Source of the DNA: Paracoccaceae bacterium
Lineage (GTDB): Bacteria > Pseudomonadota > Alphaproteobacteria > Rhodobacterales > Rhodobacteraceae
Direction: 5' to 3'
Assembly: GCA_002708925.1 (NCBI GenBank)
Contig: PAPN01000044.1
Location: forward strand, 1-56,616
Length of the DNA stretch: 56,616 nt
A model generated the notes under the pieces. The model was given only the letters and a program-made list of their open reading frames with translations, did not search any database and had not been told where the DNA came from. The position numbers and the translations under genes were made by a program. Position 1 is the stretch's first letter; each line of letters starts with the position of its first letter. Shown here piece after piece: positions 748-23,437 of the stretch.

Positions 748-1021
748 CAGAGGATTTCCTCCCAGATCTTTTCGACTTTTCGGGCCGCGGATCTCCGGGT
801 TCACGGCCAGTCACCAACCCTCGCGGTTGATTTCCCAGATCTATTCACCCGAGTGGGGGCGTAAATGCTCCAGGCTGCGGGCTAAGCTCAACATGTGGGG
901 GAAGGTTTGTAAAGGGTCACAAAAGGTTAGGTTGGGGCGCTAGGGGCTATCGGCGGGGGTAACCTTACGGAAGGCACAAGCGGATCCGAACGGTGATTTG
1001 CACGCCATCGAGGATGGCCGA

Positions 1022-1831: not shown

Positions 1832-1869
1832 CGGCGGGCCTCGTGGTGGTTTGCCTTCGTCGCGAAGGA

Positions 1870-3024
1870 TCAGACAGAACGCAGCGTCTCTTGTGGCACA
1901 GGCCCCGCCCCGGCAGACAGGCTGCGACCCAGGCGCAGCACCATCTGACGGGCGGCCTCCAGCTCGTCGCGCAGCAGGTATTCCTCGGGTTTGTGCGCGC
2001 GCGCCATATCGCCGGGGCCGCACAGAACCGAGGGGATGCCGGCCTGCTGAAACAGCCCCGCCTCGGTGCCGAAACTGACAGCCGGAGCGGCGGGATGGCC
2101 CGAAATCTGCTGTGCCAGCTGCGCTAGATCTGCGCCGGGTGCCAGCGCCAGAGGCGGATAGGTCGAGAGCCACTCAGCCTGCACATCCGGGCCCAGACTG
2201 TCCAGAACCGGCCGGAGCAACGCACGCGGATCCTGGCCCGCGATGGCGCGCGCCTCGATCCGGGCCTGGGCGTGTTCGGGAATGATATTGAGCGCCCGCC
2301 CCCCGTCAATCGTGCCGATCTGCACAGTCGAATAGGGCGGCTGGAAACGTGCGTCCTGCGGCCCCTTTTGCAGCGCTGCCGCCTGTTCGGCGGTCGCCGT
2401 CAGAACCGGCAGCAAAGCGTGAATCGCGTTCTGCCCCAGATCGGGGCGCGCGCTGTGGCCGGGGATGCCTTTGGCCGTCAGGTGCAGCGCGGCCTTTCCC
2501 TTATGCGCCAGCACCGGATGCAGGCCCGTCGGCTCTCCTACGATGCAGCCCAGTGGCGTGGCGCACAGTTCCGGCAGGGCTGCAATCAGATGGGGCACGC
2601 CCTTGCATCCGGCCTCTTCGTCATAGGACAGGGCAATATGAATCGGCGCGGCCAGATCCATGGCCAACAGGTCAGGAACCGCCGCCAGAACCGCCGCGTC
2701 AAAGCCCTTCATGTCACAGGCCCCGCGCCCGATCAGCCGCGCCCCCTCGCACCGCAGCACGAAAGGATCGCCCAGCCATTCGGGCTCGTCTGCGGGGACA
2801 ACATCCACATGGCCGGAAAGAATATAGCCCGGCACCGCCGGATCGCCGATCGTGGCAAACAGGTTTTGCCGATCGCCCTCGGGGCCCGTCAGCCGGTGGC
2901 ACGGAACGCCCAGATCCGCCAGATAAGAGGCGACGAAATCCATCAGATGCAGGTTCGAACGCCCCACAACCGAAGGAAAGCCCACCAGCTTTTCAAGCAA
3001 GGAAAATCCTGTCCAATCGGTCAT
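1870..3024 (-). CDS. argE: Acetylornithine deacetylase (M20 family)
   Basis: A 384-residue dinuclear zinc hydrolase that removes the acetyl group from N-acetylornithine in arginine synthesis. The M20A hallmarks are visible: SGHVDVVP (first metal His and the catalytic Asp), GRGACDMKGF (bridging Asp), SYDEEAGCKG (catalytic Glu plus metal Glu), and GHSARPDLGQNA in the dimerisation domain. Its length matches the ArgE group (about 380). It sits downstream of the gab operon but is separated from it by a strong hairpin (3131-3170), so it is probably transcribed separately. Neighbouring amine catabolism genes leave open a role on another N-acyl diamine or amino acid. Confidence 0.85.
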   Translation of the reverse strand: MTDWTGFSLLEKLVGFPSVVGRSNLHLMDFVASYLADLGVPCHRLTGPEGDRQNLFATIGDPAVPGYILSGHVDVVPADEPEWLGDPFVLRCEGARLIGRGACDMKGFDAAVLAAVPDLLAMDLAAPIHIALSYDEEAGCKGVPHLIAALPELCATPLGCIVGEPTGLHPVLAHKGKAALHLTAKGIPGHSARPDLGQNAIHALLPVLTATAEQAAALQKGPQDARFQPPYSTVQIGTIDGGRALNIIPEHAQARIEARAIAGQDPRALLRPVLDSLGPDVQAEWLSTYPPLALAPGADLAQLAQQISGHPAAPAVSFGTEAGLFQQAGIPSVLCGPGDMARAHKPEEYLLRDELEAARQMVLRLGRSLSAGAGPVPQETLRSV

Positions 3025-3130
3025 GTCCGCCCCCCGGTCATCTTGTCTGCCCCAGCTATGGCACAGTTTGCCCGCAAGGCAACACCTTGAGGCGCTCTGG
3101 GCTGGGCGTGGCCGCAGAGCTGCTGAAAAT

Positions 3131-3170
3131 ATGCCCGCGCCGCCAAGGGGTTAGAAAACGGCGCGGGCAT
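3131..3170 (-). terminator. Hairpin terminator of the gabT-gabD operon
   Basis: A perfect 12-bp inverted repeat (ATGCCCGCGCCG at 3131-3142 and its complement at 3159-3170) with a 16-nt loop lies 9 bp past the gabD stop. Read on the minus strand it is followed by ATTTTC. This separates gabD from argE. Confidence 0.75.
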
Positions 3171-3178
3171 GTGAGCGG

Positions 3179-4636
3179 TTATTGGATACCGCCCAAACAC
3201 AGGTATTTGATTTCCAGGAAATCCTCGGTCCCGTATTTCGAGCCTTCGCGTCCCAGACCCGATTGCTTGATCCCGCCAAAGGGCGCGACCTCGGTCGAGA
3301 TCAGGCCGGTGTTGATCCCCACCATGCCCGATTCCAGCGCCTCGGCCACGCGCCAGACGCGCGCCAGATCGTTGCTGTAGAAATACGAGGCCAGCCCGAA
3401 TTCACTGTCATTGGCCATGGCGATCACTTCGGATTCGTCGCTGAACTTGAACAGCGGCGCGACAGGGCCAAAGGTTTCCTCTTTCGCGACGGCCATCTGA
3501 GGGGTGACGCCGGTCAGCACGGTGGGCTGAAAGAACGTCCCGCCCAGTTCAGAAGGCGCGCCGCCCATGGCCAGCTTGGCGCCTTTGTCCAGCGCGTCGG
3601 CAATGTGGCTTTGAACCTTGTCCAGCGCGGCCGCATTGATCAAAGGCCCGGTGGTCACGCCCTCGGCAAAGCCATCGCCAATGGTCAGCGATTGGGTTGC
3701 CGCAGCCAGTTTTTCGGCAAAGGCGTCATAGACACCTTCCTGCACGTAAATCCGGTTCGCGCAGACACATGTCTGGCCGTTGTTGCGATATTTGGCGATC
3801 ATCGCGCCCTCGACGGCGGCATCCAGATCGGCGTCATCGAAAACGATGAAGGGGGCATTGCCGCCCAGCTCCAGCGACATTTTCTTGATGGTGTCAGAGC
3901 ACTGGCTCATCAAGATTTTGCCCACACGGGTCGAGCCGGTAAAGGTGATCTTGGCGACCTTATCGTTAGCGCACAGTTCCTGGCCCACGCCCGCGCTGTC
4001 CGAGGACGGGATCACGTTGAACACCCCTGCCGGAATGCCCGCCCGTTCGCCCAGAACCGCCATGGCCAGCGCGGATAGCGGCGTCAGTTCCGCCGGGCGC
4101 GCCACAAAGGTGCACCCCACGGCCAGCGCCGGAGCCACCTTGCGCGCGATCATCGCATTGGGGAAGTTCCACGGCGTGATCGAGCCGACAACCCCCACGG
4201 GCTGTTTCAGCACCACGATGCGTTTGTCGCGCTGATGGCCGGGGATCACGTCACCGTAGATGCGCTTGGCCTCTTCGGCGAACCATTCGATGAACGAGGC
4301 CCCATACAGAATCTCGCCCCGTGCCTCGGGCCAGGGTTTGCCCATTTCGGCGGTCAGGATGGTGGCCAGATCGTCGGCGTTTTCCACCATCAGATCATAC
4401 CATTTACGCAAGATCGTTCCGCGTTCTTTGCCGGTCAGCGCAGCCCACTCGGCCTTGGCGGCATAGGCGGCGTCAATCGCGTCAGAGGTGCCGGCAATGC
4501 TGATGTCGGACACGTTGGCGATCAGCGCGCCGGTCGAGGGATTGTGCACCGGAAACGTCTGTTCCGTCTCCAGCCACACACCATTCACATAGCCGCGGGT
4601 TTCCAGCAGCGACGGATCCTTGAGTTTCAGAGTCAT
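3179..4636 (-). CDS. gabD: Succinate-semialdehyde dehydrogenase
   Basis: A 485-residue cytosolic aldehyde dehydrogenase that oxidises succinate semialdehyde to succinate, the second step of the GABA shunt. Visible hallmarks are TPWNFPNAM (oxyanion Asn), ITFTGSTRVGK (cofactor loop), ELGGNAPFIVFDDADLD (general base Glu) and NNGQTCVCANRIYV (catalytic Cys and the second Cys of the GabD redox pair). The start follows gabT by 9 bp, so the two are co-transcribed. One unusual point: the segment usually reading KPA in this family reads ARPAELTP, so Arg replaces the conserved Lys that contacts the cofactor ribose. Cofactor preference may be affected. Confidence 0.93.
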   Translation of the reverse strand: MTLKLKDPSLLETRGYVNGVWLETEQTFPVHNPSTGALIANVSDISIAGTSDAIDAAYAAKAEWAALTGKERGTILRKWYDLMVENADDLATILTAEMGKPWPEARGEILYGASFIEWFAEEAKRIYGDVIPGHQRDKRIVVLKQPVGVVGSITPWNFPNAMIARKVAPALAVGCTFVARPAELTPLSALAMAVLGERAGIPAGVFNVIPSSDSAGVGQELCANDKVAKITFTGSTRVGKILMSQCSDTIKKMSLELGGNAPFIVFDDADLDAAVEGAMIAKYRNNGQTCVCANRIYVQEGVYDAFAEKLAAATQSLTIGDGFAEGVTTGPLINAAALDKVQSHIADALDKGAKLAMGGAPSELGGTFFQPTVLTGVTPQMAVAKEETFGPVAPLFKFSDESEVIAMANDSEFGLASYFYSNDLARVWRVAEALESGMVGINTGLISTEVAPFGGIKQSGLGREGSKYGTEDFLEIKYLCLGGIQ

Positions 4637-11041: not shown

Positions 11042-11371
11042 TCAATGCGAGATCATCCAGGGCCGTTTGCTGGGGAAGCTCTTGGATCCGTCCGGGCGGT
11101 ACAGCGTTTTGGAGTTCTTCTTTTCCCCGCCTCCGCAACAGCCGCAGCCCGGCCCGTGCGCGGATCTGCGCGGGCTGTCGGCGCTGCGTTCGTTGGTTTC
11201 ATGCGCGTGGCGGCGGCCTGAATCCATGACGGACAGTTTGGGCGCGGTCATCATCACGCGCGGCGCGGGCAGCGCGCAAACCGGACAGGCGCAGGGCTCG
11301 GCGAATTTCGACATGGGCACCAGGGATTCGAACGGGCCGCAATCGTCGCACCAATATTCGTAAACGGGCAT
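11042..11371 (-). CDS. FmdB-type zinc ribbon protein
   Basis: A 109-residue small protein that begins MPVYEYWCDDCGPFE, the hallmark of FmdB zinc ribbons, with a second Cys pair CACPVC near residue 28. A low-complexity Cys/Gly cluster (HGPGCGCCGGGEKK) follows near residue 75. In Methylophilus the family is encoded with formamidase and was proposed as a regulator. Here it lies downstream of fmdA, on the same strand, after a hairpin. It converges with the rimK operon, 12 bp apart. Zinc binding is well supported; a regulatory role is only by analogy. Confidence 0.85.
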   Translation of the reverse strand: MPVYEYWCDDCGPFESLVPMSKFAEPCACPVCALPAPRVMMTAPKLSVMDSGRRHAHETNERSADSPRRSAHGPGCGCCGGGEKKNSKTLYRPDGSKSFPSKRPWMISH

Positions 11372-11423: not shown

Positions 11424-12656
11424 TTACAGATCAGGGGCCAGCGGGATGTCGATCGAGCCATCCAGGAACTTGGTCGGACCATCCGGGTTGGGCATCATGC
11501 CGTCGAATTCAAAGATGTCCGTGGGCAGCCACAGCGTGGCACAGGCGTTCGGAATATCCACCACGCCCGAGATATGCCCCTGCACCGGAGCCGTGCCCAA
11601 AATCGCATAGGCCTGCGCGCCGGAATAGCCGAATTTCTTCAGATACTCGATCGCGTTCAGACAGGCCTGACGATAGGCAATGTGGACGTCCAGATAGTGC
11701 TGCTCGCCAGCCTCATCGACGCTGATGCCTTCGAAGATCAGATAGTCATCGTATTTCGGCGTGATCGGCGAGGGTTTGAAAATCGGGTTTTTCACACCGT
11801 ATTTGGACATGCCTTCCTTGATCAGGCTGACCTTCAGGTGCAGCCAGCCGGCCATTTCGATGGCCCCGCAGAAGGTGATCTCGCCATCGCCCTGGCTGAA
11901 GTGCAGATCCCCCATCGAAAGGCCCGCGCCATCCACGTAAACCGGGAAGTAAATCTTCGAGCCGCGGCTCAAGTCCTTGATGTCACAGTTGCCGCCATGT
12001 TCGCGCGGCGGCACGGTGCGCGCGCCCTCGGCGGCGGCGGCATCGCGTTCTTCGCCCTTCATCGCGCCCATATGCGCGCTTTGGGTGTTGGGCAGCGCTG
12101 CCAGAGGCGGCGTGCGGTCCGGGTTGGTGTTGAACAGCGCGGTTTCGCGTTCATTCCACATGTCCAGCATCTTGCGATCGGGCAAACAGCCGATCAGACC
12201 GGGGTGGATCAGGCCGGCATATTTCACGCCAGGCACGTGGCGCGATTTGGTGAACATGCCTTCGAAATCCCAGATGGATTTCTGCGCCTCGGGGAAATGC
12301 TCGGTCAGGAAACCGCCGCCGTTTTGCTTGGAAAAGAAGCCGTTAAAGCCCCACTGGCTTTCTTCCTTGGCGCCGATGTCCAGAATTTCCACCACCAGCA
12401 GGTCGCCCGGCTCGGCCCCTTTGACGCCGATGGGGCCGGACAGATAGTGCACCTGCTCCAGCTCTACATCGCGCACGTCGCTGGCGTCGTCGTCATTCTT
12501 GATCTGCCCGCCGGTCCAGTCATAGGTCTCGATCTTGAAGTCATCGCCAGGTTCGACCCAGACGTTGATCGGGATGTCGGGGTGCCACCTGTTGTGTACG
12601 TTTTCATTGGTGTGGGGGCTTTCGCTCAGGTCCACCGAAATCAGCGTATCTGCCAT
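11424..12656 (-). CDS. fmdA: Formamidase (acetamidase/formamidase family)
   Basis: A 410-residue cytosolic amidohydrolase that splits formamide to formate and ammonia. Length and sequence fit the FmdA family throughout, including VEPGDDFKIETYDWTGGQIK, YLSGPIGVKGAEPGDLLVV, REHGGNCDIKDLSRGSKIYF, MGDLHFSQGDGEITFCGA and QAYAILGTAPVQGHISGVVD near the C-terminus. It is last in the urtABCDE-fmdA series, 20 bp after urtE, so the transporter probably brings in short-chain amides as well as, or in place of, urea. No urease genes are in the window. Confidence 0.92.
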   Translation of the reverse strand: MADTLISVDLSESPHTNENVHNRWHPDIPINVWVEPGDDFKIETYDWTGGQIKNDDDASDVRDVELEQVHYLSGPIGVKGAEPGDLLVVEILDIGAKEESQWGFNGFFSKQNGGGFLTEHFPEAQKSIWDFEGMFTKSRHVPGVKYAGLIHPGLIGCLPDRKMLDMWNERETALFNTNPDRTPPLAALPNTQSAHMGAMKGEERDAAAAEGARTVPPREHGGNCDIKDLSRGSKIYFPVYVDGAGLSMGDLHFSQGDGEITFCGAIEMAGWLHLKVSLIKEGMSKYGVKNPIFKPSPITPKYDDYLIFEGISVDEAGEQHYLDVHIAYRQACLNAIEYLKKFGYSGAQAYAILGTAPVQGHISGVVDIPNACATLWLPTDIFEFDGMMPNPDGPTKFLDGSIDIPLAPDL

Positions 12657-12676: not shown

Positions 12677-13366
12677 TTAAACGGAGAGGAATTTCGAGAC
12701 CTTGGCCTCGTCGATGCCGTCGCGCGGGCTGTCGTGCACAAATTCGCCATTCTCGATCACCATGACCCGGTCCGCGACGTCCAGAGCAAAGCTAAGCACC
12801 TGTTCTGAAACGATGATCGACAGGCCCTTCTGATCGCGGATCTTGCGCAGGGTGCGGGCCATTTCACGGATGATCGAGGGCTGGATGCCTTCTGTCGGCT
12901 CATCCAGCAGCAGCACCTTGGGGTTGCTGGCCAGCGCGCGGGCAATCGCCAGCTGCTGCTGCTGACCGCCCGACAGGTTCCCCCCGCGGCGCGATTTCAT
13001 TTCCAGCAGCACGGGGAACAGCTCGTAAATGTCATCAGGCACCTTTTTGCTGCCCGTCACCGTCAGCCCCGTTTCCACGTTCTCCTGCACCGTCATGGCC
13101 GAGAAAATCATCCGCCCCTGCGGCACATAGGCGATGCCCCTGGCGACGCGTTGGTGCGATTTCAGCCCCGTCACCGCGTCCGTCCCCACCGACACGGCCC
13201 CCGATTTTTCCGGCACGATGCCCATCAGGGTTTTCATCAGCGTGGTTTTGCCCATGCCGTTGCGCCCCATGATGGCGACGATTTCACCGGGCCTGACCTT
13301 CAGATCCAGCCCGTGCAGCACCTCGGATTCGCCATAGGCCGCGCGCAGATCGGTTACATCCAGCAT
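12677..13366 (-). CDS. urtE: Urea/amide ABC transporter ATP-binding protein UrtE
   Basis: A 229-residue ATPase of the LivF branch. Walker A is GRNGMGKTT, the signature is LSGGQQQQLAIARAL, and Walker B is VLLLDEPTEGIQPS. The start at 13366 (MLDVTDLRAAYGESEVLHG) follows an AAGGAG site; the open frame extends further upstream only as a shadow of urtD. It pairs with UrtD to drive uptake through UrtBC. GIQP after Walker B is a common feature of UrtE proteins. Confidence 0.92.
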   Translation of the reverse strand: MLDVTDLRAAYGESEVLHGLDLKVRPGEIVAIMGRNGMGKTTLMKTLMGIVPEKSGAVSVGTDAVTGLKSHQRVARGIAYVPQGRMIFSAMTVQENVETGLTVTGSKKVPDDIYELFPVLLEMKSRRGGNLSGGQQQQLAIARALASNPKVLLLDEPTEGIQPSIIREMARTLRKIRDQKGLSIIVSEQVLSFALDVADRVMVIENGEFVHDSPRDGIDEAKVSKFLSV

Positions 13367-13377
13367 GTGTTCTCTCC

Positions 13378-14127
13378 TTAGTGGCCCAGATAGACTTCGA
13401 TGACTTTGGGATCGTTCTGCACCCGCTCCATCGAGCCCTCGGACAGGGTTTTGCCCTGGTGCAGGACGGTGACGCGGGTGGCGATATCCTCGACAAAGCC
13501 CATGTCGTGTTCGATCACGATGACCGAGCGGTCCTTGATGATGCGGTTCAGCAGCTCGGCGGTTTTCTTGCGCTCGGCGACGGACATGCCGGCGACCGGC
13601 TCGTCCAGCATCAGCAGCTCGGGGTCCTGGATCAGCAGCATCCCGATTTCCAGCCACTGTTTCTGGCCGTGGCTCAGATAGGCGGCTTTTTCGTCCAACT
13701 GATCGTCCAGGAAAATCGTCTTTGCGATTTCTTTGATGCGGGTTTTCACCGGGTCATCGCGGCGAAACGTCAGCGCCCCGAACACACCGTGCCCCTTGGG
13801 ATAGCTGAGTTCCAGATTTTCAAACACGGTCAGGTCTTCGTAGACCGAGGGCGTCTGGAATTTGCGCCCCACCCCGGCGTGGACGATCTGATCTTCGCGC
13901 ATGTTCAGCAGCTCGTGCCCCTTGAAATTAACTGAGCCCGAGGTCGCCTTTGTCCGGCCGCAGATCAGATCCAGCACCGTGGTTTTGCCCGCCCCGTTGG
14001 GGCCGATGATCACCCGGCATTCATTGGGTTCGACGTAAAAGCTCAGGTCGTTGACCGCCTTGAACCCGTCGAAGGATACCGTCAGCCCTTCGACCGTCAG
14101 CACGAAATTTGGATTATTCACAGACAT
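13378..14127 (-). CDS. urtD: Urea/amide ABC transporter ATP-binding protein UrtD
   Basis: A 249-residue ATPase of the LivG branch. Walker A is GPNGAGKTTVLD, the signature region is LSHGQKQWLEIGMLL (the LSHGQKQ form is typical of UrtD), and Walker B is LLMLDEPVAGMSVAER. GVGRKFQTPSVYEDLTVFEN is the family's Q-loop region. It starts 11 bp after urtC with an AAGGAGGCCGTAA ribosome site. Works as a heterodimer with UrtE. Confidence 0.93.
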   Translation of the reverse strand: MSVNNPNFVLTVEGLTVSFDGFKAVNDLSFYVEPNECRVIIGPNGAGKTTVLDLICGRTKATSGSVNFKGHELLNMREDQIVHAGVGRKFQTPSVYEDLTVFENLELSYPKGHGVFGALTFRRDDPVKTRIKEIAKTIFLDDQLDEKAAYLSHGQKQWLEIGMLLIQDPELLMLDEPVAGMSVAERKKTAELLNRIIKDRSVIVIEHDMGFVEDIATRVTVLHQGKTLSEGSMERVQNDPKVIEVYLGH

Positions 14128-14138
14128 TTACGGCCTCC

Positions 14139-15269
14139 TTATTCGGCGGGAGTGTTGGCGCTGCCGGGCAGATCACCGCCCGAGGTTTTCTTGAACAGCT
14201 TGGAGATGCGCGGCGCGACGTAATCGGCGTAGATACCGGCCAGACCGTTGGGGAAAATCATCACAACCGCGATGAACAGCCCGCCCAGGCCCAGCAGCCA
14301 CAGCTCGGGGAAGCTTTCGGAAAAAGTGGTTTTCGCCCAGTTCACCAAAAGCGCACCATAGACCGCGCCCAGGATCGAAATCCGCCCGCCAACCGCGCAG
14401 AAAATCACCATCTCGATCGAGGGCACGATCCCCACCAGCGTGGGCGACATAAAGCCCACCTGAAGGGTGAACATCGCCCCGCCGATGCCAGCGAAGGCGG
14501 CCCCTAGACAGAAGACAAAGATCTTGAAATTCGCGACGTTGTAGCCGGAAAAGCGCACGCGGTCCTCTTGGTCGCGCATGGCAATCAGCAGCCGGCCCAG
14601 CTTGGATTTGCGCACAAATTGCGCGGCCAGCAGGACCACGAACAGCAGCGCTCCGTTGACGAAATACAGGATTTCCTTGGCCTCGTCCGTGCGGATGTCC
14701 CAGCCCAGCAGAGTGCGCAGGTCGGTGATGCCGTTGACGCCCCCGGTATAGCCCTGCTGACCGATGATCAGGATGGTCAGGATCGCGGCGAAGGCCTGGG
14801 TGATGATGGCGAAATACACGCCCCCCACACGCCGGGTGAACATGGCCACCCCGATGATGAAGGCAAAGATCACCGGCACCATGACCACGGCCAACAGGGC
14901 AAAGGCCAAGCTGTTGAACGGTTGCCACCAAGACGGCAGCGCGGTCAGCTGGTTCCAGTCCATGAAGTCGGGAATGCCGGGCGTGGATTGGATCGCAGTG
15001 TTTTCAGGCGTCGAGGCTTCGAGCTTGAGGAACATCGCCATGCAATAGCCCCCCAGCCCGAAAAACACGCCCTGCCCCAGGCTGAGGATCCCTCCAGCCC
15101 CCCAGCACAGCACCAGCCCGATGGCGACAAAGGCATAGGTCAGATACTTGCCAAACAGGTTCAGGCGAAAGGTATCCAGCGCGACGGGCAAGACAACAAA
15201 GATGACGACGGCGAGGACGGCAAAGCCAATCAGCTCGGAACGGGAAAGAAAGCGGTTGGACGTTTCCAT
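14139..15269 (-). CDS. urtC: Urea/amide ABC transporter permease UrtC
   Basis: A 376-residue inner-membrane permease of the LivM type with about ten hydrophobic segments. Family features are AFVAIGLVLCWGAGGILSLG near residue 45 and RDQEDRVRFSGYNVANFKIF, the coupling-helix region that contacts the ATPases. A short hydrophilic insert (about residues 85-110, STPENTAIQSTPGIPDFMDW) is usual in UrtC. The start follows GGAGGCCGCA. It lies 12 bp after urtB. Confidence 0.92.
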   Translation of the reverse strand: METSNRFLSRSELIGFAVLAVVIFVVLPVALDTFRLNLFGKYLTYAFVAIGLVLCWGAGGILSLGQGVFFGLGGYCMAMFLKLEASTPENTAIQSTPGIPDFMDWNQLTALPSWWQPFNSLAFALLAVVMVPVIFAFIIGVAMFTRRVGGVYFAIITQAFAAILTILIIGQQGYTGGVNGITDLRTLLGWDIRTDEAKEILYFVNGALLFVVLLAAQFVRKSKLGRLLIAMRDQEDRVRFSGYNVANFKIFVFCLGAAFAGIGGAMFTLQVGFMSPTLVGIVPSIEMVIFCAVGGRISILGAVYGALLVNWAKTTFSESFPELWLLGLGGLFIAVVMIFPNGLAGIYADYVAPRISKLFKKTSGGDLPGSANTPAE

Positions 15270-15281
15270 TGCGGCCTCCGG

Positions 15282-16208
15282 TTATTTGCGCAGTTTCATG
15301 GCGAACAGGCCTTGCGGGCGGATCATCAGGATGCCCACAACGGTCAGCAGCGTCAGAACCTTGGCCATCGAGCCGGACAGGAAGAACTCCATGATCGACT
15401 GGGCCTGGCTGATCGAAAACGCGCTGGCGATGGTGCCCAGCAGGCTGGCGGCGCCGCCGAAGACGACCACAAGGAACGTATCCACGATATAAAGCTGCCC
15501 CGCCGTCGGGCCGGTGGAGCCGATCATCGTAAAGGCCGAGCCAGCCACCCCCGCCACACCGCAGCCGATGCCAAAGGTCAGACGGTCCGTCCATTCGGTA
15601 TTGATGCCCACAGCGCCCGCCATCACGCGGTTCTGGTTGATCGCGCGCACCTGACGGCCCCAGGTGGATTTGAACATCAGGATATAGACCGCCGCCGAGA
15701 TGCTGACGGCCAGCACCATCACGAAAATCCCGTTGATCGGCACCTCGATCAGGTCGGTCAGCGGCAATGAGCCCATCATCCAGTCGGGAATGGTCACGCC
15801 GACCTCGCGCGCGCCAAAGACGCTGCGGTACACCTGTTGCAGGATAAGGCTCAGGCCCCAGGTGGCCAGCAACGTATCCAGCGGGCGTTTATACAGATGC
15901 CGGATCAGCGCCCATTCGACGAATAACCCCAAGGCCCCGGACGCAATGAACGCCAGGATCATCGCCACAAAGAAATAGGCGCTGAACAGCGCCGGCATGT
16001 AGGTCGAAAACAGGTTCGACATCAAATAGGTGACATAGGCGCCCAGGATCATGAACTCGCCATGGGCCATGTTGATCACGCCCATCTGGCCAAAAATGAT
16101 CGCCAGTCCCAGCGCCATAAGGACAAAGACGGAAAAGAGGATAAGCCCCGCGAAACCTTGCATGGCAAAGATCGCGCCCAGCTCGCTCATCGAGTAGTCG
16201 GAAAACAT
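15282..16208 (-). CDS. urtB: Urea/amide ABC transporter permease UrtB
   Basis: A 308-residue inner-membrane permease of the LivH type. The N-terminal region reads GLAIIFGQMGVINMAHGEFM, the conserved LivH/UrtB segment. A coupling loop with RAINQNRVMAGAVGINTEWT is present near residue 190. It lacks the long periplasmic N-terminal extension of some cyanobacterial UrtB proteins, as expected for the proteobacterial form. It follows urtA after 89 bp that include a stem-loop. Confidence 0.92.
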   Translation of the reverse strand: MFSDYSMSELGAIFAMQGFAGLILFSVFVLMALGLAIIFGQMGVINMAHGEFMILGAYVTYLMSNLFSTYMPALFSAYFFVAMILAFIASGALGLFVEWALIRHLYKRPLDTLLATWGLSLILQQVYRSVFGAREVGVTIPDWMMGSLPLTDLIEVPINGIFVMVLAVSISAAVYILMFKSTWGRQVRAINQNRVMAGAVGINTEWTDRLTFGIGCGVAGVAGSAFTMIGSTGPTAGQLYIVDTFLVVVFGGAASLLGTIASAFSISQAQSIMEFFLSGSMAKVLTLLTVVGILMIRPQGLFAMKLRK

Positions 16209-16297: not shown

Positions 16298-17572
16298 TTA
16301 CTGGTAACCCTCGGGGAAGGGATCGGGCTCGACCAGATCGGCGGTTTCGAACACCACTTCGTACTGGCCGTCCGGCTTGGCCAGACCGACGCGGGTCTTG
16401 GACCACAGGGGATGGTTTTCATGCACTTTGACATAGCCTTCGGGGGCCGAGGTCAGCTCGATACCCGGGGTGGCGGCGCGCACCTTATCCACGTCGAAGC
16501 TGCCGGCCTTTTCAACAGCGGCTTTCCACAGCCACGGGCCCAGATAGGCGGCCTGGGTCACGTCGCCGATCACCATGTCCTCGCCCCACATCTCTTTGAA
16601 GGCTTTGACGAATTCCATGTTGTTGTCGTTGGTCAGCGACTGGAAATACTTCATGCAGGCATAGGCGCCATCGATGTTTTCGCCGCCAATGCCGCGGATC
16701 TCGTCCTCGGTCACGGAAATGGTCAGGACCAGCGGTTTTTCCTTGGTCATGTCGATGCCAGCGGCCTTCAGCTGCTTGTAGAACGCCACGTTCGAGCCCC
16801 CCACGACGATCGCATAGATCACGTCGGGTTTCTTCAGGCGGATCTTGTTGATGACCGAGTTGAACTGGGTGTGACCCAGCGGATAATATTCCTCGCCCAC
16901 GACCTTGGCGCCGTCTAGGAAGTTCTCGATATGCTTGCGCGCAATCTTGTTCGAGGTCCGCGGCCAGATGTAATCCGAGCCCAGCAGATAGAAGGTTTTC
17001 GCGCCTTTTTCCTTGGACACCCAATCCAGGCCAGCGATGATCTGCTGCGTGGCTTCTTGGCCGGTGTAGATCACGTTGGGCGACTGCTCCAGACCTTCAT
17101 AGAAGGTGGGATAGTAGAGGAAGCCGTTATACTGCTCGAACACCGGCAGAACCGCCTTGCGGCTGGCCGAGGTCCAGCAGCCCATGACCGAGGCGACCTT
17201 GTCATTCACCAGCAGCTTCTTGGCTTTTTCCGCGAAGGTCGGCCAATCGGATGCGCCGTCTTCCTGGATGTATTCGATCTTGCGGCCCAGAATACCGCCC
17301 TGGGCGTTGATCTGTTCAATTGCCAGTTTTTCCGCCTGAACGGACCCGGTTTCCGAAATCGCCATGGTGCCGGTGATCGAGTGCAGAATACCGATGGTCA
17401 CGGTGTCATCGGTGACAGCCAGACCGGTGGTGTTGACGGCGGACGTGGGATAGTCAGCAGCCATCAGATGCTTGGGTGCGAACAGGGATGCAGTCAGTGC
17501 TGCCGCCCCACCTGCAAGAACGCTGCGGCGGCTGACGCCGGACGAGAGTTCATTGAGTTTTTTCTTGGACAT
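16298..17572 (-). CDS. urtA: Urea/amide ABC transporter substrate-binding protein UrtA
   Basis: A 424-residue periplasmic binding protein of the Leu/Ile/Val-like (type I) fold. Its N-terminus MSKKKLNELSSGVSRRSVLA holds a twin-arginine motif (SRRSVLA), so Tat export is likely, with cleavage near MAA (about residue 38). The domain begins TVTIGILHSITGTMAISETG, close to UrtA/FmdD/AmiC proteins. The start at 17572 follows GGAGGCGAT; the open frame upstream adds 19 residues without a better site. First gene of the operon. Ligand may be urea or short amides, given the linked formamidase. Confidence 0.92.
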   Translation of the reverse strand: MSKKKLNELSSGVSRRSVLAGGAAALTASLFAPKHLMAADYPTSAVNTTGLAVTDDTVTIGILHSITGTMAISETGSVQAEKLAIEQINAQGGILGRKIEYIQEDGASDWPTFAEKAKKLLVNDKVASVMGCWTSASRKAVLPVFEQYNGFLYYPTFYEGLEQSPNVIYTGQEATQQIIAGLDWVSKEKGAKTFYLLGSDYIWPRTSNKIARKHIENFLDGAKVVGEEYYPLGHTQFNSVINKIRLKKPDVIYAIVVGGSNVAFYKQLKAAGIDMTKEKPLVLTISVTEDEIRGIGGENIDGAYACMKYFQSLTNDNNMEFVKAFKEMWGEDMVIGDVTQAAYLGPWLWKAAVEKAGSFDVDKVRAATPGIELTSAPEGYVKVHENHPLWSKTRVGLAKPDGQYEVVFETADLVEPDPFPEGYQ

Positions 17573-17663
17573 ATCGCCTCCTGAAACTTTGCGAGAAGTG
17601 ACCCTGGGCGATTTGCTTTCCGCCCTCACCTCGTCAGGTTTGCGGAAAATGCTGCGGTGCAGT

Positions 17664-17681
17664 ATACGTCAAATAACGTAT
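17664..17681. promoter_or_regulatory. Palindrome upstream of urtA
   Basis: ATACGT (17664-17669), CAAATA, ACGTAT (17676-17681) is a perfect 6-6-6 inverted repeat between urtA and the divergent sensor kinase. A TATACT hexamer on the minus strand (17666-17661) overlaps its edge. It is a good candidate site for the linked LuxR-type regulator; binding is inferred only. Confidence 0.5.
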
Positions 17682-17809: not shown

Positions 17810-20800
17810 ATGGTGACAGCCTTGAAGGCGACAACGGAACGGCGACGCTATAATCGCTGGGTCGCGAATGAAACGATGGAAGATTTCGCGCTGCGTTTCA
17901 CCGCTCGGCGGGCGCGCAGATGGAGCTATGGCCGCGTGGCGAACACCGCCATTGGCTCGATTTCTTTTCTCGCGCTCGAAGCGATTGGCGGCACCATCAC
18001 CCTGCTTTACGGATTCGACATCGCGGTGGCGGCGATCATGCTGGTGGGGCTGCTGCTGTTTCTGACCGGGCTGCCGATCAGCTACTATGCGGCCAAGCAC
18101 GGCGTGGATATTGATCTGCTGACGCGCGGCGCCGGGTTCGGTTATATCGGCTCGACTGTCACGTCGCTGATCTATGCCAGTTTTACCTTTATTTTCTTTG
18201 CGTTAGAGGCCGCAATTCTGGCCCTGGCCATGGAGTTCTGTTTCGGATTGCCGCTGATGCTGGGCTATCTGATTGCGGCGGTGGTGGTGATTCCGATGGT
18301 CGCCAAGGGGTTTACGAAAATCTCGGCTTTTCAGACCTGGACGCAGCCTCTGTGGGTGATTTTGCATATCCTGCCCTTCGTTCTGCTGGCTTTTGTCGGT
18401 TATGATTTCGACACCTGGACCAGCTTTCCGGGGCAGGAATCTGAGATCAAGGAACGCTCGACCATCCTGATGGTGGGGGCGGCGGCGGGGGTGGTGTTTT
18501 CACTGATCGCGCAGATCGGAGAACAGGTGGATTTCCTGCGTTTTCTGCCCGAGCCCAAGTCCCGCGCCGACCGTCGAAAATGGTGGGCCGCGCTGATCGC
18601 CGCCGGGCCGGGCTGGTCTGTTCTGGGGGTTCTGAAAATGCTGGCCGGATCCTATCTGGTGACGCTGGCGATCCGCGAATCTGTCCCCCTGGCCGAGGCC
18701 GCAGACCCGACTCGCATGTACTTTACCGCGTTTAATCAAGTAATTAACACGCCATGGTTGGTTTTGGGGTTGACCGGGATTTTCGTGATCCTGTCGCAGC
18801 TGAAGATTAACATCACCAATGCCTATGCCGGGTCGATCGCCTGGTCGAACTTCTTTTCGCGGCTGACACACAGCCATCCGGGCCGGGTTGTCTGGTTGGT
18901 GTTCAACGTGGCCATCGCGCTGATCCTGATGGAGCTGGGGGTCTTTGCCGCGCTGGAAAGTATCCTGGCGCTGTATTCGCATGTCGCTCTGTCGTGGATT
19001 GGGGCGCTGGTGGCCGATCTGGTGATCAACAAACCGCTGGGTCTCAGCCCTCGCGGGATCGAGTTCCGCCGCGCTCATCTGCATGATGTGAACCCGGTGG
19101 GGATTGGCGCCATGATCGCCGCCTGCGTGATCTCTTTGGTGGCGTATGCGGGTGCCTTGGGCGATCTGGCCGAGGCCCTGTCGACCGTGATCGCGCTGGG
19201 TACGGCCTTTGTGATGGCCCCGGTGATCGCCTATTGGACCAAGGGCAAATATTACATCGCGCGCCCCCCGGTGAATGCCGAACCGGGCCTGCATGAATGC
19301 TCGGTCTGTGAATACAAATTCGACGCCGAGGACATGACCCACTGCCCCTTCCATTCGGGGCCGATCTGTTCGCTATGCTGCACGTTGGACAGCGCTTGCC
19401 GCGACGCCTGCAAACCCGAGGCGCGCCTGGACAACACTCTTGCGGCCCTGACCCAGAGGATATTCCCCGCCCCGATCGCGCAAATGCTGATGTCGCGCCT
19501 GTCCATGTTCGCCATCGCCACGACCGGGCTGGCGCTGGGATTTGGCGGGCTGTTGCTGATGATCCGGGGCTTTCGTGACCAGACCAATTTCGACGCCGCA
19601 CTGACCATCATCTTCTGCGTGATGCTGATCGTTATCGGCATTTGCGTGTGGATGTTCATTCTGGCCCATGAAAGCCAGGCCAAAGCGCGCGAGGAAGCCT
19701 CGCGCCAGACAGAAAGCCTGCTACGCGAGATCCGCGCCCACGAACGCACCGACCGCGCCCTGCAAGAGGCCAAGGAAAAAGCCGAGGCCGCCAATCTGGC
19801 CAAGACCCGCTACATGAGCGGGCTCAGCCACGAGCTGCGCACGCCGTTGAACTCGATCTATGGCTTTGCTCAAATTTTAGAAAAAGACCCCCGCATCCCC
19901 GAGGAACGGCGCGGGGCGGTGACCACGATCCGCCGCTCTTCGGAGCATCTGGCAGGGCTGATCGAGGGACTGCTGGACATCAGCCGGATCGAGGCCGGCC
20001 GGCTGGAACTGACCCGCGACCGCATCAACCTGCGCACCTTCCTGCATCAGGTTGCCTCGATCTTCGAGGAAACCGCGCGCGAAAAGGGGCTGGAGTTCAG
20101 CATCAAAACCCGCGGCGTGCTGCCCGACTGGATCGCCTGCGATGAAAAACGCCTGCGCCAGATCATCATTAACCTGATGTCCAACGCGATCCGCTACACG
20201 CAACAGGGCGCGGTTCAGCTGACCCTGAATTACCGTAACGAGGTGGCCGTGATCGAGGTCTCGGACACCGGCACCGGCATCCCCGCACATGAGATTGATC
20301 GCATCTGGCGCCCGTTCGAACGCGGGCGGGGGGCGATTGCGGGGGGCTCGGGGCTGGGACTGACGATCACCAAGCTGCTGGTGGAAATCCTGGGCGGCGC
20401 GATCGAAGTCGAAAGCACACCGGGCAAGGGCAGCCTGTTCCGGGTGCGGATGATGCTGCCCTCGGTGGCCTATGACAAAGCCGCCCCGGCGGATGTGATC
20501 CGCACCTCGGCGGCGGGATATACCGGGCCACGCCGCACGCTGATGGTGGTGGATGACGACCTGAACCACCTGTCCCTGGTCGAGAATTATCTGACGCCCG
20601 TCGGGTTTTCGGTGCTGCAGGCGCCCAATGCGGAAATCGCACTGGAGATGCTGGGCGACATCCGGCCCGAACTGTTCATTCTGGACATCGACATGCCCGG
20701 CATGGACGGCTGGCAACTGGCGCACGAGCTGCGCGAGGGGATGCACGCGACCACGCCGATCATCATGATTTCGGGCCATGCCTCGGATGCGCAGAAACCT

Positions 20801-21148
20801 GTCGCGCGCTCGGCCTTGTGTGATGCGTTCATCGCCAAACCCTATAACCTGGACGATCTGCTGCTGCGCATCTGCGCGCTGCTCAAGGTCGAGCTGGTGC
20901 CCGAAGCCCTGCCCTCGGCCTCGGTTGCGGCCTCGGCGGTGCAGACGATCAAACGCTCCGACGCGCTGTTCATTCTGGAAATGGCCGAAATTGGCCATAC
21001 CAAGGCGATCCGCGACAAGATCACCGCCCTGGAACAGGCCGGGGCGATTCCGCTGGATCTGAGCCTCTCGTTGCGGCGCCGGATTGATCAGTTCGACATG
21101 ACCGGCGTCCGCAATCTTATCAGAAAGGCCGACCAACATGCTGCTTGA
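17810..21148 (+). CDS. NCS1-permease/hybrid histidine kinase/receiver fusion (transporter-like sensor)
   Basis: A 1112-residue inner-membrane sensor. Residues about 20-470 form a twelve-helix NCS1 (cytosine/purine/allantoin-type) permease fold, from SYGRVANTAIGSISFLALEA to ALGTAFVMAPVIAYWTKGKY. A Cys/His-rich segment beginning at Cys497 (CSVCEYKF, HCPFHSGPICSLCC, CRDACK) probably binds metal. Two more membrane helices (about 560-625) and a coiled coil lead to a kinase core: H-box FSHELRTPLNS-like with His674, N-box NLMSNAIRYT, G-boxes DTGTGIP and GSGLGLT. A receiver (about 910-1030) has acidic residues at 915-917 and phospho-acceptor Asp959. A helical tail follows. It is divergent from the urt-fmd operon and overlaps a LuxR regulator gene, so it probably senses urea or amides. 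Ligand is inferred. Confidence 0.88.
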   Translation: MVTALKATTERRRYNRWVANETMEDFALRFTARRARRWSYGRVANTAIGSISFLALEAIGGTITLLYGFDIAVAAIMLVGLLLFLTGLPISYYAAKHGVDIDLLTRGAGFGYIGSTVTSLIYASFTFIFFALEAAILALAMEFCFGLPLMLGYLIAAVVVIPMVAKGFTKISAFQTWTQPLWVILHILPFVLLAFVGYDFDTWTSFPGQESEIKERSTILMVGAAAGVVFSLIAQIGEQVDFLRFLPEPKSRADRRKWWAALIAAGPGWSVLGVLKMLAGSYLVTLAIRESVPLAEAADPTRMYFTAFNQVINTPWLVLGLTGIFVILSQLKINITNAYAGSIAWSNFFSRLTHSHPGRVVWLVFNVAIALILMELGVFAALESILALYSHVALSWIGALVADLVINKPLGLSPRGIEFRRAHLHDVNPVGIGAMIAACVISLVAYAGALGDLAEALSTVIALGTAFVMAPVIAYWTKGKYYIARPPVNAEPGLHECSVCEYKFDAEDMTHCPFHSGPICSLCCTLDSACRDACKPEARLDNTLAALTQRIFPAPIAQMLMSRLSMFAIATTGLALGFGGLLLMIRGFRDQTNFDAALTIIFCVMLIVIGICVWMFILAHESQAKAREEASRQTESLLREIRAHERTDRALQEAKEKAEAANLAKTRYMSGLSHELRTPLNSIYGFAQILEKDPRIPEERRGAVTTIRRSSEHLAGLIEGLLDISRIEAGRLELTRDRINLRTFLHQVASIFEETAREKGLEFSIKTRGVLPDWIACDEKRLRQIIINLMSNAIRYTQQGAVQLTLNYRNEVAVIEVSDTGTGIPAHEIDRIWRPFERGRGAIAGGSGLGLTITKLLVEILGGAIEVESTPGKGSLFRVRMMLPSVAYDKAAPADVIRTSAAGYTGPRRTLMVVDDDLNHLSLVENYLTPVGFSVLQAPNAEIALEMLGDIRPELFILDIDMPGMDGWQLAHELREGMHATTPIIMISGHASDAQKPVARSALCDAFIAKPYNLDDLLLRICALLKVELVPEALPSASVAASAVQTIKRSDALFILEMAEIGHTKAIRDKITALEQAGAIPLDLSLSLRRRIDQFDMTGVRNLIRKADQHAA

Positions 21149-22049
21149 TCCGAACACGCATAATATCGCCCTGGTGGTGGATGACAGCCCCGAAGCGCTG
21201 GAGTTCGTCACAGCCGCGCTGGAGGAAATCGGCATGACGGTACTGGCCGCCCGTGACGGGGCCGCCGCGATCGAGCTGGTCAAACGCGTGCAGCCCGATG
21301 TGATCATGATGGACGCGATGATGCCCGGCATGGACGGATTCGCGGCCTGCGCGACTCTGAAAACCGCCCCCCATGCCACGGATGCGCCGATCATCTTCAT
21401 GACCGGGCTGAATGACCGTGACAGCATCGTGCGCGGGCTGAAAAGCGGCGGCGTGGACTACATCACCAAACCGGTAGAGCTTGAAGAAATGATCGCGCGG
21501 GTCACCGTTCACGTGCTGAACTCGAAGATGATGCGCAGCGCACGCGAGGCGCTGGACAGTTTCGGGCGCGCTGTTCTGGCGATTGACCCGCAAGGCCGGG
21601 TCATCTGGGGATCGCCGCGGGCCTATGATCTGCTGGGCACTGCCGGCTTGGCCCAGACCAAGCAATTCTCCCCCCAGGCCCCGGTTATGGGCTGGCTGAC
21701 CCATTCCAGCGCGCAGCCCGTGTCGGGCACTCTGCCGCTGGAATGGAAGGGGCTGCGCCTGACCTATATCGGGCGCTCGTCGGTGGGGGAAATGCTGGTG
21801 CGCCTGTGCACGGCCTCGGATGAACGCCCCCACGACATCCTGACCAAAGAGCTGAACCTGACCGAACGCGAGGGCGAGGTTCTGTACTGGCTGTCACAGG
21901 GCAAATCCAACCGCGACATCGCCGAGATCCTGTCGCTGAGCGCCCGCACCGTGAACAAGCATCTGGAGACGATTTTTCAGAAACTGGGGGTCGAGAACCG
22001 CACCTCGGCGGCCATCATCGCGGATCGCAAACTAAGCGACAAGCTCTGA
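21138..22049 (+). CDS. LuxR-family response regulator
   Basis: A 303-residue regulator. Residues 8-125 are a receiver domain with acidic residues Asp15-Asp16, phospho-acceptor Asp59 (MMDAMMPGMDG) and Lys in YITKPVELEE. A middle segment (about 140-225) looks like a small PAS-type domain (GRAVLAIDPQGRVIWGSPRA). The C-terminus (about 235-295) is a LuxR helix-turn-helix (LTEREGEVLYWLSQGKSNRD, then ARTVNKHLETIFQKLGVENR). It overlaps the sensor gene by 11 bp, so the two form one two-component system. The nearest target is the urt-fmd promoter. Confidence 0.92.
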   Translation: MLLDPNTHNIALVVDDSPEALEFVTAALEEIGMTVLAARDGAAAIELVKRVQPDVIMMDAMMPGMDGFAACATLKTAPHATDAPIIFMTGLNDRDSIVRGLKSGGVDYITKPVELEEMIARVTVHVLNSKMMRSAREALDSFGRAVLAIDPQGRVIWGSPRAYDLLGTAGLAQTKQFSPQAPVMGWLTHSSAQPVSGTLPLEWKGLRLTYIGRSSVGEMLVRLCTASDERPHDILTKELNLTEREGEVLYWLSQGKSNRDIAEILSLSARTVNKHLETIFQKLGVENRTSAAIIADRKLSDKL

Positions 22050-22277: not shown

Positions 22278-22508
22278 ATGCCCAAAATGCAGACCGCCCA
22301 ACCGGCCCGTAAGGTTTATGGCAGCACCGCCGCGGCGGCCTTTGCCTCGGTTCTGATCCTGCTGGTGGAAAGGATGTCCGCCGCGCCCCTGCCCGATGGC
22401 TTGGACACCGCGATCATGACCCTGGTGGTGTTCGCCGCCGGATATTTCATCCCGCCCGCCGCCATCGACCAGGTGATCGAAACCCCTCTGCGCACAGGAG
22501 ACACGTAA
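22278..22508 (+). CDS. Small two-helix membrane protein (holin-like)
   Basis: A 76-residue protein beginning MPKMQTAQPARKVYGSTAAA, with two hydrophobic helices (about 14-34 and 42-60) joined by a Pro-rich turn, ending in AAGYFIPPAAIDQVIETPLR. The pattern of a basic N-terminus, two helices and a YxxPP end resembles small holin-like membrane proteins of phages and bacterial chromosomes; that is a resemblance, not an assignment. The start was placed at 22278 after CAGGAGCCCAAA; the frame is open further upstream without protein-like composition. Its stop overlaps the next start (TAATG), so it is coupled to the lipoprotein gene. Confidence 0.7.
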   Translation: MPKMQTAQPARKVYGSTAAAAFASVLILLVERMSAAPLPDGLDTAIMTLVVFAAGYFIPPAAIDQVIETPLRTGDT

Positions 22509-23437
22509 TGAACATTCCCGCTTGCAAGCGTTCGCTGGCCATTGTGCTGCTGTGCGGCACCGCCGCTTGTACCACCCCGGACCTGTCCGGCCAGATCGTG
22601 CAGGTGTCCAAAATGCTGGACGACACGGTCAAGACCACCGGGCCCGCACTGCAAAAGGCCGCCGAGGCCGAACGCCAGGCCTTGTTGCGGCAGGCCGCGC
22701 GATCTCACAAGACGGCGGTCACCCTGCCCAAGGGGTGCCGCCAGATCATAGAGGGCGAGCTGGCAAAAAGCGTGGCCCATTGTCATATCCAATATCATAT
22801 CGCCCCCCAGGACAGAGCGGATTCGCCCATCCTGGTCAGCCGGGCCCTGGTCGCGATGCAGACCTATTTTGCGGTGCTCGGGCAGATTGCAACCACGGAT
22901 TCGCCCGATCAGATAAAGGCAAACAGCGCCTCGCTGCTGGGCGCGCTGGCCAGCGCCGCGAATGCCGGTGACTTTGCTCCGCTGACCGGCCTGCACGCTC
23001 TTGTAGAGGGGCGCGGCGGGGCGCTCTCGGCCACTGCGGGGTTCTTTGCGGATCAGGCCCGTATCCGCGCCCTGCGCCGCACCATCAAAGACGCCGATCC
23101 GCACCTGAGCAAACTGGTCACCAACAGTCACGAGCTGTTCACCCAATTGGGCGACACGGTCAAGATCCGGCGCGATGCTGTTTCGGATTCGATGGACGCC
23201 TACACGCTGGCCCTGTCTCAACAGGATACAGCCGCCCAGATCATGGCCGTCAACAAACTGCAAAAGGCCGTCCAGGCAATGCACACCCAAGAGAAGGTCT
23301 CGCCCATCCGGCGCCTGCACCTGGCCTATGACATGCACCGCGCCATGCTGACACGGCTGGAGGGCGGCCCCAGCCTGACCGAGCTAAACACCCTGACAAC
23401 GCAAGTTGCCGCAATCGTCACCCTGCTGGAGGAGTAA
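22508..23437 (+). CDS. Lipoprotein of unknown function
   Basis: A 309-residue exported protein. The N-terminus MNIPACKRSLAIVLLCGTAAC has a signal peptide and a lipobox ending in Cys21, so lipid anchoring is expected. Thr at +2 and Thr at +3 do not suggest inner-membrane retention, so the outer membrane is likely if E. coli-type sorting applies. The mature part is mainly helical, with charged helices around LSKLVTNSHELFTQLGDTVK and QDTAAQIMAVNKLQKAVQAM. I recognise no domain. Second gene of a four-gene run, 3 bp before the next gene. Confidence 0.75.
   Translation: MNIPACKRSLAIVLLCGTAACTTPDLSGQIVQVSKMLDDTVKTTGPALQKAAEAERQALLRQAARSHKTAVTLPKGCRQIIEGELAKSVAHCHIQYHIAPQDRADSPILVSRALVAMQTYFAVLGQIATTDSPDQIKANSASLLGALASAANAGDFAPLTGLHALVEGRGGALSATAGFFADQARIRALRRTIKDADPHLSKLVTNSHELFTQLGDTVKIRRDAVSDSMDAYTLALSQQDTAAQIMAVNKLQKAVQAMHTQEKVSPIRRLHLAYDMHRAMLTRLEGGPSLTELNTLTTQVAAIVTLLEE

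Follow-up and report, generated by a model that had tools for sequence, protein, structure and literature searches.

The window analysed here is a stretch of 56,616 nucleotides (contig PAPN01000044.1 of the Paracoccaceae bacterium assembly GCA_002708925.1), one contig of a 3.42-Mb genome assembly in 61 contigs that is 83% complete, and it encodes a hybrid histidine kinase whose putative sensor is an NCS1-like permease domain, followed by a response regulator of the LuxR type. We propose, with a probability of roughly 0.78, that the two proteins make up a two-component system in which the permease-like receptor detects urea and/or short-chain amides and the regulator activates the divergent urtABCDE-fmdAB genes through a palindrome located between them and the kinase gene. 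The elements on which this proposal is built, namely the domain anatomy of the proteins, the NCS1-like fold, the linkage of fused kinases to urea and amide genes and the conservation of the palindrome, were all obtained by computation.

A permease fold fused to a histidine kinase

The kinase gene (17810-21148, forward strand; 1112 residues), delimited by its open reading frame (ORF) and by Pfam, AlphaFold2 and Foldseek results, starts with the NCS1-like domain (residues 1-479; 17810-19246, forward), which is bounded by the AlphaFold2 helices and by its best Foldseek matches, CodB and Mhp1. After a cysteine-rich linker and a membrane hairpin, Pfam recognises on the same strand a HisKA dimerization and histidine phosphotransfer (DHp) domain with phospho-acceptor H674 (residues 665-730; 19802-19999), a HATPase_c domain containing the N, G1 and G2 boxes (residues 778-882; 20141-20455) and a C-terminal Response_reg receiver with D959 (residues 912-1021; 20543-20872). 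The regulator gene (21138-22049, forward; 303 residues) overlaps the kinase ORF by 11 nucleotides, and in Pfam its product combines a receiver (D59), a middle segment and a LuxR-type helix-turn-helix (GerE, residues 240-295), so that all the expected two-component features are in place. The overlapping LuxR regulator and the positions of H674, D959 and Cys497 had been called from the letters of the DNA by an earlier model-generated analysis, hereafter the sequence-only reading, and all of them are exact.

The case for the permease domain is primarily structural. An AlphaFold2 model of residues 1-665, built with 62 sequences, reached a predicted local distance difference test (pLDDT) value of 86.5 and a predicted template modelling (pTM) score of 0.86, and the five best PDB structures retrieved with it by Foldseek were all NCS1 proteins: two chains of CodB (7qoa; E 2.4e-8 and 2.8e-8, template modelling scores of 0.75-0.76 by target length), followed by Mhp1 (2jln, 4d1a and 2x79). 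Other LeuT-fold proteins, including NIS and DUR3, a urea transporter of plants, appeared from E 1e-5 on, and the first SSS-type structure, that of NIS (E 1.8e-5), ranked behind the five NCS1 matches. These results bear out the proposal of the sequence-only reading that the kinase contains an NCS1-type permease fold, which it put at about 450 residues and which here takes up the first 480 or so, and that this fold is not of the SSS type found in CbrA.

From its sequence alone, the domain is not recognised as a member of NCS1. Pfam finds no family at E<=0.01 in residues 1-560 of the window kinase, neither PF02133 nor SSS, and even at E<=10 PF02133 has no match in six relatives (L005, L010, L012, L013, L036 and L077; L numbers are our own labels). 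At that threshold three of four fused relatives (L010, L036, L077) match nothing in Pfam and the fourth (L013) only the unrelated DUF2794 (E 0.073), while L012 matches a single unrelated family (E 0.3). PF02133 has no match in the genome of the window, searches of PDB sequences with the window protein and with the 62-sequence profile found no transporter, and an hhalign comparison with a close Mhp1 relative was not significant (E 0.18). Direct sequence evidence having failed, the case is carried by the structure and by a free-standing bridge protein, L125, which matches both the window domain (E 5.9e-29) and a free-standing form from Acinetobacter (E 2.5e-38) and scores 36.4 bits against PF02133, above the cut-off of 23.5. 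The L125 gene has as neighbours one gene for a carbon-nitrogen hydrolase and one for a binding protein resembling UrtA; compared with PDB by sequence, L125 yields no transporter and one spurious match (E 0.0099). Judged by its modelled fold and by this intermediate, the domain is related to NCS1 proteins and is not a canonical NCS1 sequence.

According to excerpts of PMC9379551, CodB holds its ligand between Trp108 and Phe204, an aromatic sandwich conserved across the NCS1 family, and also uses Gln105, as well as Thr278/Thr279 in its Na2 site; Mhp1 uses Gln121 and Asn318. We mapped this pocket by profile alignment to two NCS1 proteins encoded in related genomes; both alignments, to L199 (hhalign E 0.0012) and to L195 (E 0.0054), the latter tied to Mhp1 numbering, are weak. 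By these weak alignments the tryptophan of transmembrane helix (TM) 3 corresponds to F129, aromatic but not Trp (Phe in 60/62 fused proteins), the TM6 aromatic to L232 (Leu in 60/62) or to position 233 (Ile/Val in 55/62), depending on the alignment, and Gln121 to E133, invariant in 62/62. In a hand alignment of TM8, the first of the two Na2-site Thr/Ser residues is replaced by Val/Ile at 335 (59/62), the second is kept (T336, 61/62) and Asn318 of Mhp1 gives way to G341 (62/62). On whether the substrate-site residues are kept, a point raised by the sequence-only reading, the answer is thus that the canonical aromatic clamp is altered; this change, together with the invariant acid, suggests a pocket suited to a small non-aromatic ligand. 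Eight polar residues (E57, E133, Q235, E238, Q239, K332, N334 and N337) do not vary among the 62 fused proteins aligned. E57 is likewise Glu in 17/17 fused rows of a second alignment and in 0/4 free-standing rows, and is possibly a mark of the receptor form. Both E57 and K332 are charged residues inside membrane helices.

Linkage to urea and amide genes

The distribution of the fused kinase was surveyed in 398 genomes of the same phylum, own genome included (Pseudomonadota, as judged from named tree neighbours). The permease domain was matched in 59 of them and the fused kinase, as an ORF over 880 residues, in 52. Outside the window, 54 of 56 fused loci adjoin urt, fmdA or urease genes, and the remaining two (L138, on a 4.8-kb contig, and L160) are cut by contig ends. 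Labelling as amide-type the loci with fmdA and a UrtA close to that of the window, and as urea-type those with a second type of UrtA/UrtB, we count 35 amide-type loci; urease genes are the neighbours in 7 further loci, and in another 6 they occur together with urea-type UrtA/UrtB, while urea-type urt adjoins the kinase gene in 4 and fmdA plus an AmiS/UreI gene in 2. Altogether, fmdA is present in 37/56 and urease genes in 13/56. Six of the 56 loci (L181, L186 and L190-L193) were recognised as urea-type urt/ure loci with a second query set, supplemented by family searches on the genes of L186, L190, L192 and L193. Among the closest contig loci, the best 80 of at least 525 relatives, 78 have urea or amide genes and the other two (L066, L072) are again cut by contig ends. 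The association also holds from the side of the enzyme: FmdA (E<=1e-60) is found in 40/398 genomes, 39 of which also encode the fused kinase, where 5.2 would be expected (Fisher p 1.4e-41, without correction for relatedness). The expectation that such fusions would lie beside urea or amide genes in other genomes is borne out. Mapped on a quick tree of 143 kinase domains, the amide-type label requires 8 changes under parsimony, and supported branches force 4 of them; the type of neighbourhood has hence changed several times, and the constant element is the class of substrate.

The domain occurs on plasmids as well, tblastn locating it in 532 plasmid records (342 from Klebsiella), and an Enterobacter plasmid shows the same urt layout with a formamidase of the AmiF type. 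Sinorhizobium meliloti is listed with a domain of 52% identity; its region, lacking annotation, was left out of the comparison. A subclass beside fmdA and AmiS/UreI (L131, L132, L011) has a shorter kinase of 877-885 residues, the kinase part of which is 27-30% identical to that of the window. In three Rhizobiaceae-type loci, the UrtB ORFs of urea-type transporters (L190:2897-4549, L193:5087-6706 and L186:13721-15823) are extended at the N terminus by about 240 to 400 residues relative to the UrtB model, with unsure start codons.

In the window, the urt genes lie on the reverse strand, divergent from the kinase gene, and all score above NCBIfam cut-offs: urtA (16298-17629; TIGR03407, 544 bits, cut-off 492.75), with a likelier true start at the ATG at 17572, urtB (15282-16208; TIGR03409), urtC (14139-15269; TIGR03408), urtD (13378-14127; TIGR03411) and urtE (12677-13387; TIGR03410), the ORF of which reaches 13657 with homology from protein residue 99 (about 13363). 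They are followed on the same strand by fmdA (11424-12656), of the formamidase/acetamidase family and 91% identical to a gene annotated acetamidase/formamidase in L006, and by an fmdB-like gene (11042-11371) for a zinc-ribbon protein 65% identical to the one encoded after fmdA in L006. The placement divergent from urtABCDE-fmdA had been described correctly by the sequence-only reading. Downstream of the regulator, a 309-residue ORF (22508-23437) has no Pfam family at E<=0.01. A broken version of the locus occurs in the same genus (L004, positions 1-3480, genome G006), where pieces of the kinase linker, receiver and regulator remain and frames resembling UrtA, UrtB and FmdA can be made out by eye; this decayed copy suggests that the system has been lost in some close relatives.

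A candidate operator

The region between urtA and the kinase gene contains a palindrome, TACGTCAAATAACGTA (17665-17680, no strand assigned), found by pattern search and comparison with relatives, which forms the core of the dyad ATACGT-N6-ACGTAT at 17664-17681. Its centre lies about 43 bp before the GTG of the urtA ORF and 100 bp before the likelier ATG. The corresponding pattern, TACGYNNNNNNRCGTA (TACGYN6RCGTA), matches the 3.42-Mb genome at this single place, and the reversed pattern used as control matches it 14 times. Across 105 loci (2.15 Mb, window included, with many close relatives, notably Bradyrhizobium), the pattern has 82 matches and its reverse 11, and 59 of the 82 fall inside the 21.7 kb of urtA-kinase gaps, a density of 2.71/kb vs 0.011/kb elsewhere. 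In those gaps (n=78), defined by a divergent UrtA over 60% identical and 30-1200 bp away, the palindrome is present in 54, and a weight matrix places 14 of the 24 gaps with no exact site above all 100 shuffles. By position, 62 matches are upstream of both urtA and the kinase gene, 9 upstream of fmdA, 1 of fmdA and kinase, 3 of the kinase only and 1 each of amiF, amiE, urtC and urtA; 3 are unassigned, one of which, in L084, immediately precedes a UrtA-like gene. On this comparative evidence, the palindrome at 17665-17680 is likely an operator.

The site extends to some loci of urease or urea-type context, being present in L070, L084, L091, L186 and L190-L193. In the urea-type loci of Rhizobiaceae type, the distance from the site to the urtA ORF downstream is 88 bp in L192 and 94 bp in L193, and in L190 the site falls within the initial 30 bases of the longest urtA ORF, whose start codon is unsure. 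The recognition helix of the regulator shows an apparent correlation with the site: RTV-N-KHLE goes with T-type half-sites in 47/51 cases, and helices with D or T go with C-type half-sites in 34/36, in a tally that omits loci having no exact site within 700 bp as well as L075 and L085, in which the helix was not read. No sigma-70-type promoter was found at the palindrome.

The eight-cysteine linker and the membrane hairpin

Between permease and kinase, residues 494-536 (19289-19417, forward) form an eight-cysteine domain (C497, C500, C512, C520, C523, C524, C530 and C534), delimited from the sequence and from a separate model. The motif CxxC-x11-C-x7-CSLCC-x5-C-x3-C is present in 144/144 fused kinases over 800 residues (142 distinct sequences, window included; the shorter ORFs L059 and L066 left out). 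A Cys/His cluster starting at Cys497 had been described here; the start is right, and what is conserved is the set of eight cysteines, as the nearby His residues of the window protein are not kept among relatives. The separate model of residues 484-562 (pLDDT 84.5, pTM 0.61) resembles two-zinc cross-brace fingers of the RING/FYVE type, although not significantly (all Foldseek E>=0.34), and a RING/FYVE-like fold is offered as a suggestion only. The universality of the motif and this weak resemblance make a structural, zinc-binding coupling domain at least as likely as the redox or metal gate proposed earlier.

Two extra membrane helices follow (563-588 and 594 to about 621; 19496-19672, forward), as indicated by model secondary structure and hydropathy. 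In the model the second belongs to one long helix, 594-664, that runs into the DHp domain, and hydropathy places membrane segments at 564-590 and 590-627. As the model can be read to contain 12 membrane helices upstream, the eight-cysteine domain would be cytoplasmic. Matches to rubredoxin (PDB, E 2.7-4.5) and to a zinc-finger protein (PDB, E 7.2) are too weak to serve as evidence, and neither does a Vpu match of residues 597-661 (Pfam E 0.0014), which at 18.8 bits is under the cut-off of 24. Apparent kinases lacking the cysteine cluster, with alignments ending near residue 486, were rejected, because in them an insert precedes the cluster. In the urease-linked kinases L126, L127, L128 and L129, the permease is separated from the eight-cysteine domain by an insert whose length varies.

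Free-standing relatives

Relatives of the permease domain also occur as proteins in their own right. With L012 as query, 18 of 535 matching records of a plasmid collection are at least 60% identical, and the matches listed (14 of those 18) come from Acinetobacter, Klebsiella, Moraxella, Streptomyces and Arthrobacter. Urease genes or fmdA adjoin four of the five free-standing loci inspected. The free-standing form belongs to the urease cluster at two inspected Acinetobacter loci, where the protein has only four cysteines (CxxC...CSLC) and ends there, and in Moraxella osloensis the gene is divergent from fmdA-fmdB. In the urease cluster of Klebsiella pneumoniae (L204, 7956-9563) it follows ureG and is annotated as a cytosine permease; in this record ureC is missing from the gene table and an insertion sequence (IS) element lies between ureB and ureE. 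The substrate of this permease may well be urea rather than cytosine.

Proposed mechanism and alternative explanations

From these observations we infer the ligand, the binding of the regulator to the palindrome, activation as opposed to repression, the coupling route and the path of the phosphate. Urea and/or short-chain amides (formamide, acetamide) would bind the permease domain and change its conformation, and this change would be relayed by the cytoplasmic eight-cysteine, probably zinc-binding, domain and the two-helix membrane hairpin to the coiled coil and the DHp domain, altering autophosphorylation at H674. The phosphate would then be transferred to D59 of the LuxR-type regulator, either directly or via D959, and the phosphorylated regulator would bind the palindrome at 17665-17680 and activate urtABCDE-fmdAB. 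The notion of an NCS1-type sensor of urea or amides, already put forward by the sequence-only reading, is favoured by the structural match, by the neighbourhoods of the fused kinases and of FmdA (54/56 loci and 39/40 genomes), by the palindrome and by the setting of four of five free-standing relatives. A broader scenario, in which these proteins are one more common type of kinase that senses through a transporter domain, appears to us evenly balanced between true and false: an NCS1-like domain may have been turned into a dedicated urea/amide receptor, coupled through a RING-like eight-cysteine zinc domain and a hairpin, and may have moved with amide and urease operons across the Pseudomonadota, its free-standing sisters, including the last gene of the Klebsiella urease operon, being unrecognised urea/amide permeases.

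Several observations weigh against the proposed system. One of the 40 FmdA genomes, G173, lacks the fusion, and the free-standing relative from Streptomyces has no urea or amide neighbour. Ten of the 24 gaps that have no exact palindrome fail to exceed all 100 shuffles, there is no site near the kinase gene in 15 urease/urea-type loci (L077, L086, L093, L126-L129, L134-L137, L178 and L181-L183), and three loci of the fmdA and AmiS/UreI type (L011, L131 and L132) have no palindrome altogether. The regulators of these 15 and 3 loci must hence use another site; a palindrome of their own was sought in twelve urease/urea-type loci and none was found. The correlation between recognition helix and half-site comprises only 3-5 independent pairs on the tree and is consequently not used as proof. 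Finally, the transporter domain of CbrA is not essential for kinase activity (PMC7096432, excerpt), and the permease domain may thus only modulate the kinase.

The alternative that survives best, although we consider it the less probable course, is a strict transceptor, in which the permease domain also imports its ligand and the flux or occupancy of urea or amides sets the kinase. The transporter-like appearance of the free-standing relatives in urease and fmdA loci, the transport by CbrA of its own ligand (PMC7096432, excerpt) and the retention of T336 all speak for it, but the neighbouring Na2 position is Val/Ile, a dedicated ABC importer (urt) adjoins the kinase gene, and Ks-Amt5 binds its ligand and does not move it (PMC5764959, excerpt). 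A kinase that reads nitrogen status, ammonium or some other internal signal in another part of the protein, with the permease as a vestigial anchor, is unlikely, since the linkage is specific to urea and amide genes and eight invariant polar residues are unlike a vestige. Less probable still is a sensory role for the eight-cysteine domain itself (for redox or for a metal such as zinc or nickel, which urease requires), with the permease merely its carrier, because the motif, although kept in every fused sequence over 800 residues, is reduced to four cysteines in the Acinetobacter relative, fmdA is far commoner than urease genes in the sampled loci (37/56 against 13/56) and the resemblance detected, itself not significant, is to structural zinc fingers.

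Relation to known systems

UreR is a soluble, urea-responsive activator of the AraC type and AmiC/AmiR a soluble, amide-responsive pair, and they induce urease and amidase genes, respectively. Being soluble, they differ from a membrane-bound histidine kinase; their existence makes urea and amide sensing as such less of a gap. The genes amiC and amiR are named in an excerpt of PMC13209695, where urt beside fmdA is also taken as a sign of formamide uptake. Among the matches listed from open PMC papers, a corpus outside which most subscription papers fall, none describes an NCS1-fused kinase, the palindrome or a membrane-bound kinase for urea or short amides. An excerpt of PMC13296017 lists the urtABCDE operon of Ectopseudomonas together with a LuxR regulator and a hybrid kinase, with fmdA at a neighbouring locus number, and makes no mention of a permease domain. 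GrtK, an ammonia-sensing kinase reported in 2026, has a PilS-like rather than a transporter domain (PMC12918730, excerpt).

The closest architectural parallels are the SLC5-STAC kinases of the CbrA/CrbS type, in which an N-terminal LeuT-fold transporter is likewise fused to a histidine kinase for nutrient use (excerpts of PMC7918813, PMC13022988 and PMC7096432). The window kinase differs from them in its NCS1-like rather than SLC5 domain, in its LuxR-type partner and in having an eight-cysteine domain and a two-helix membrane hairpin where they have a STAC-PAS linker; Pfam finds neither PAS nor STAC in it at E<=0.01, its holding of a STAC model not having been checked. The ammonium sensor kinase Ks-Amt5 similarly uses the transporter domain of a nitrogen compound as its sensor (PMC5764959, excerpt), but the fold is that of Amt and the compound is another. 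CodB and Mhp1 share the fold and are linked to the window domain through L125, whereas the latter lacks a Pfam NCS1 match and the aromatic sandwich and is fused to a kinase. MetT, which carries the linear biguanide metformin, illustrates that linear nitrogen compounds can be substrates of NCS1 proteins (PMC13390362, excerpt), although MetT is a transporter only.

The system adds to the examples of transporter folds that have become receptors of kinases. With a defined receptor, regulator and candidate operator it renders membrane sensing of urea and amides directly testable. It also suggests likely substrates for the possibly misnamed "cytosine/allantoin permeases" encoded beside urease genes or fmdA.

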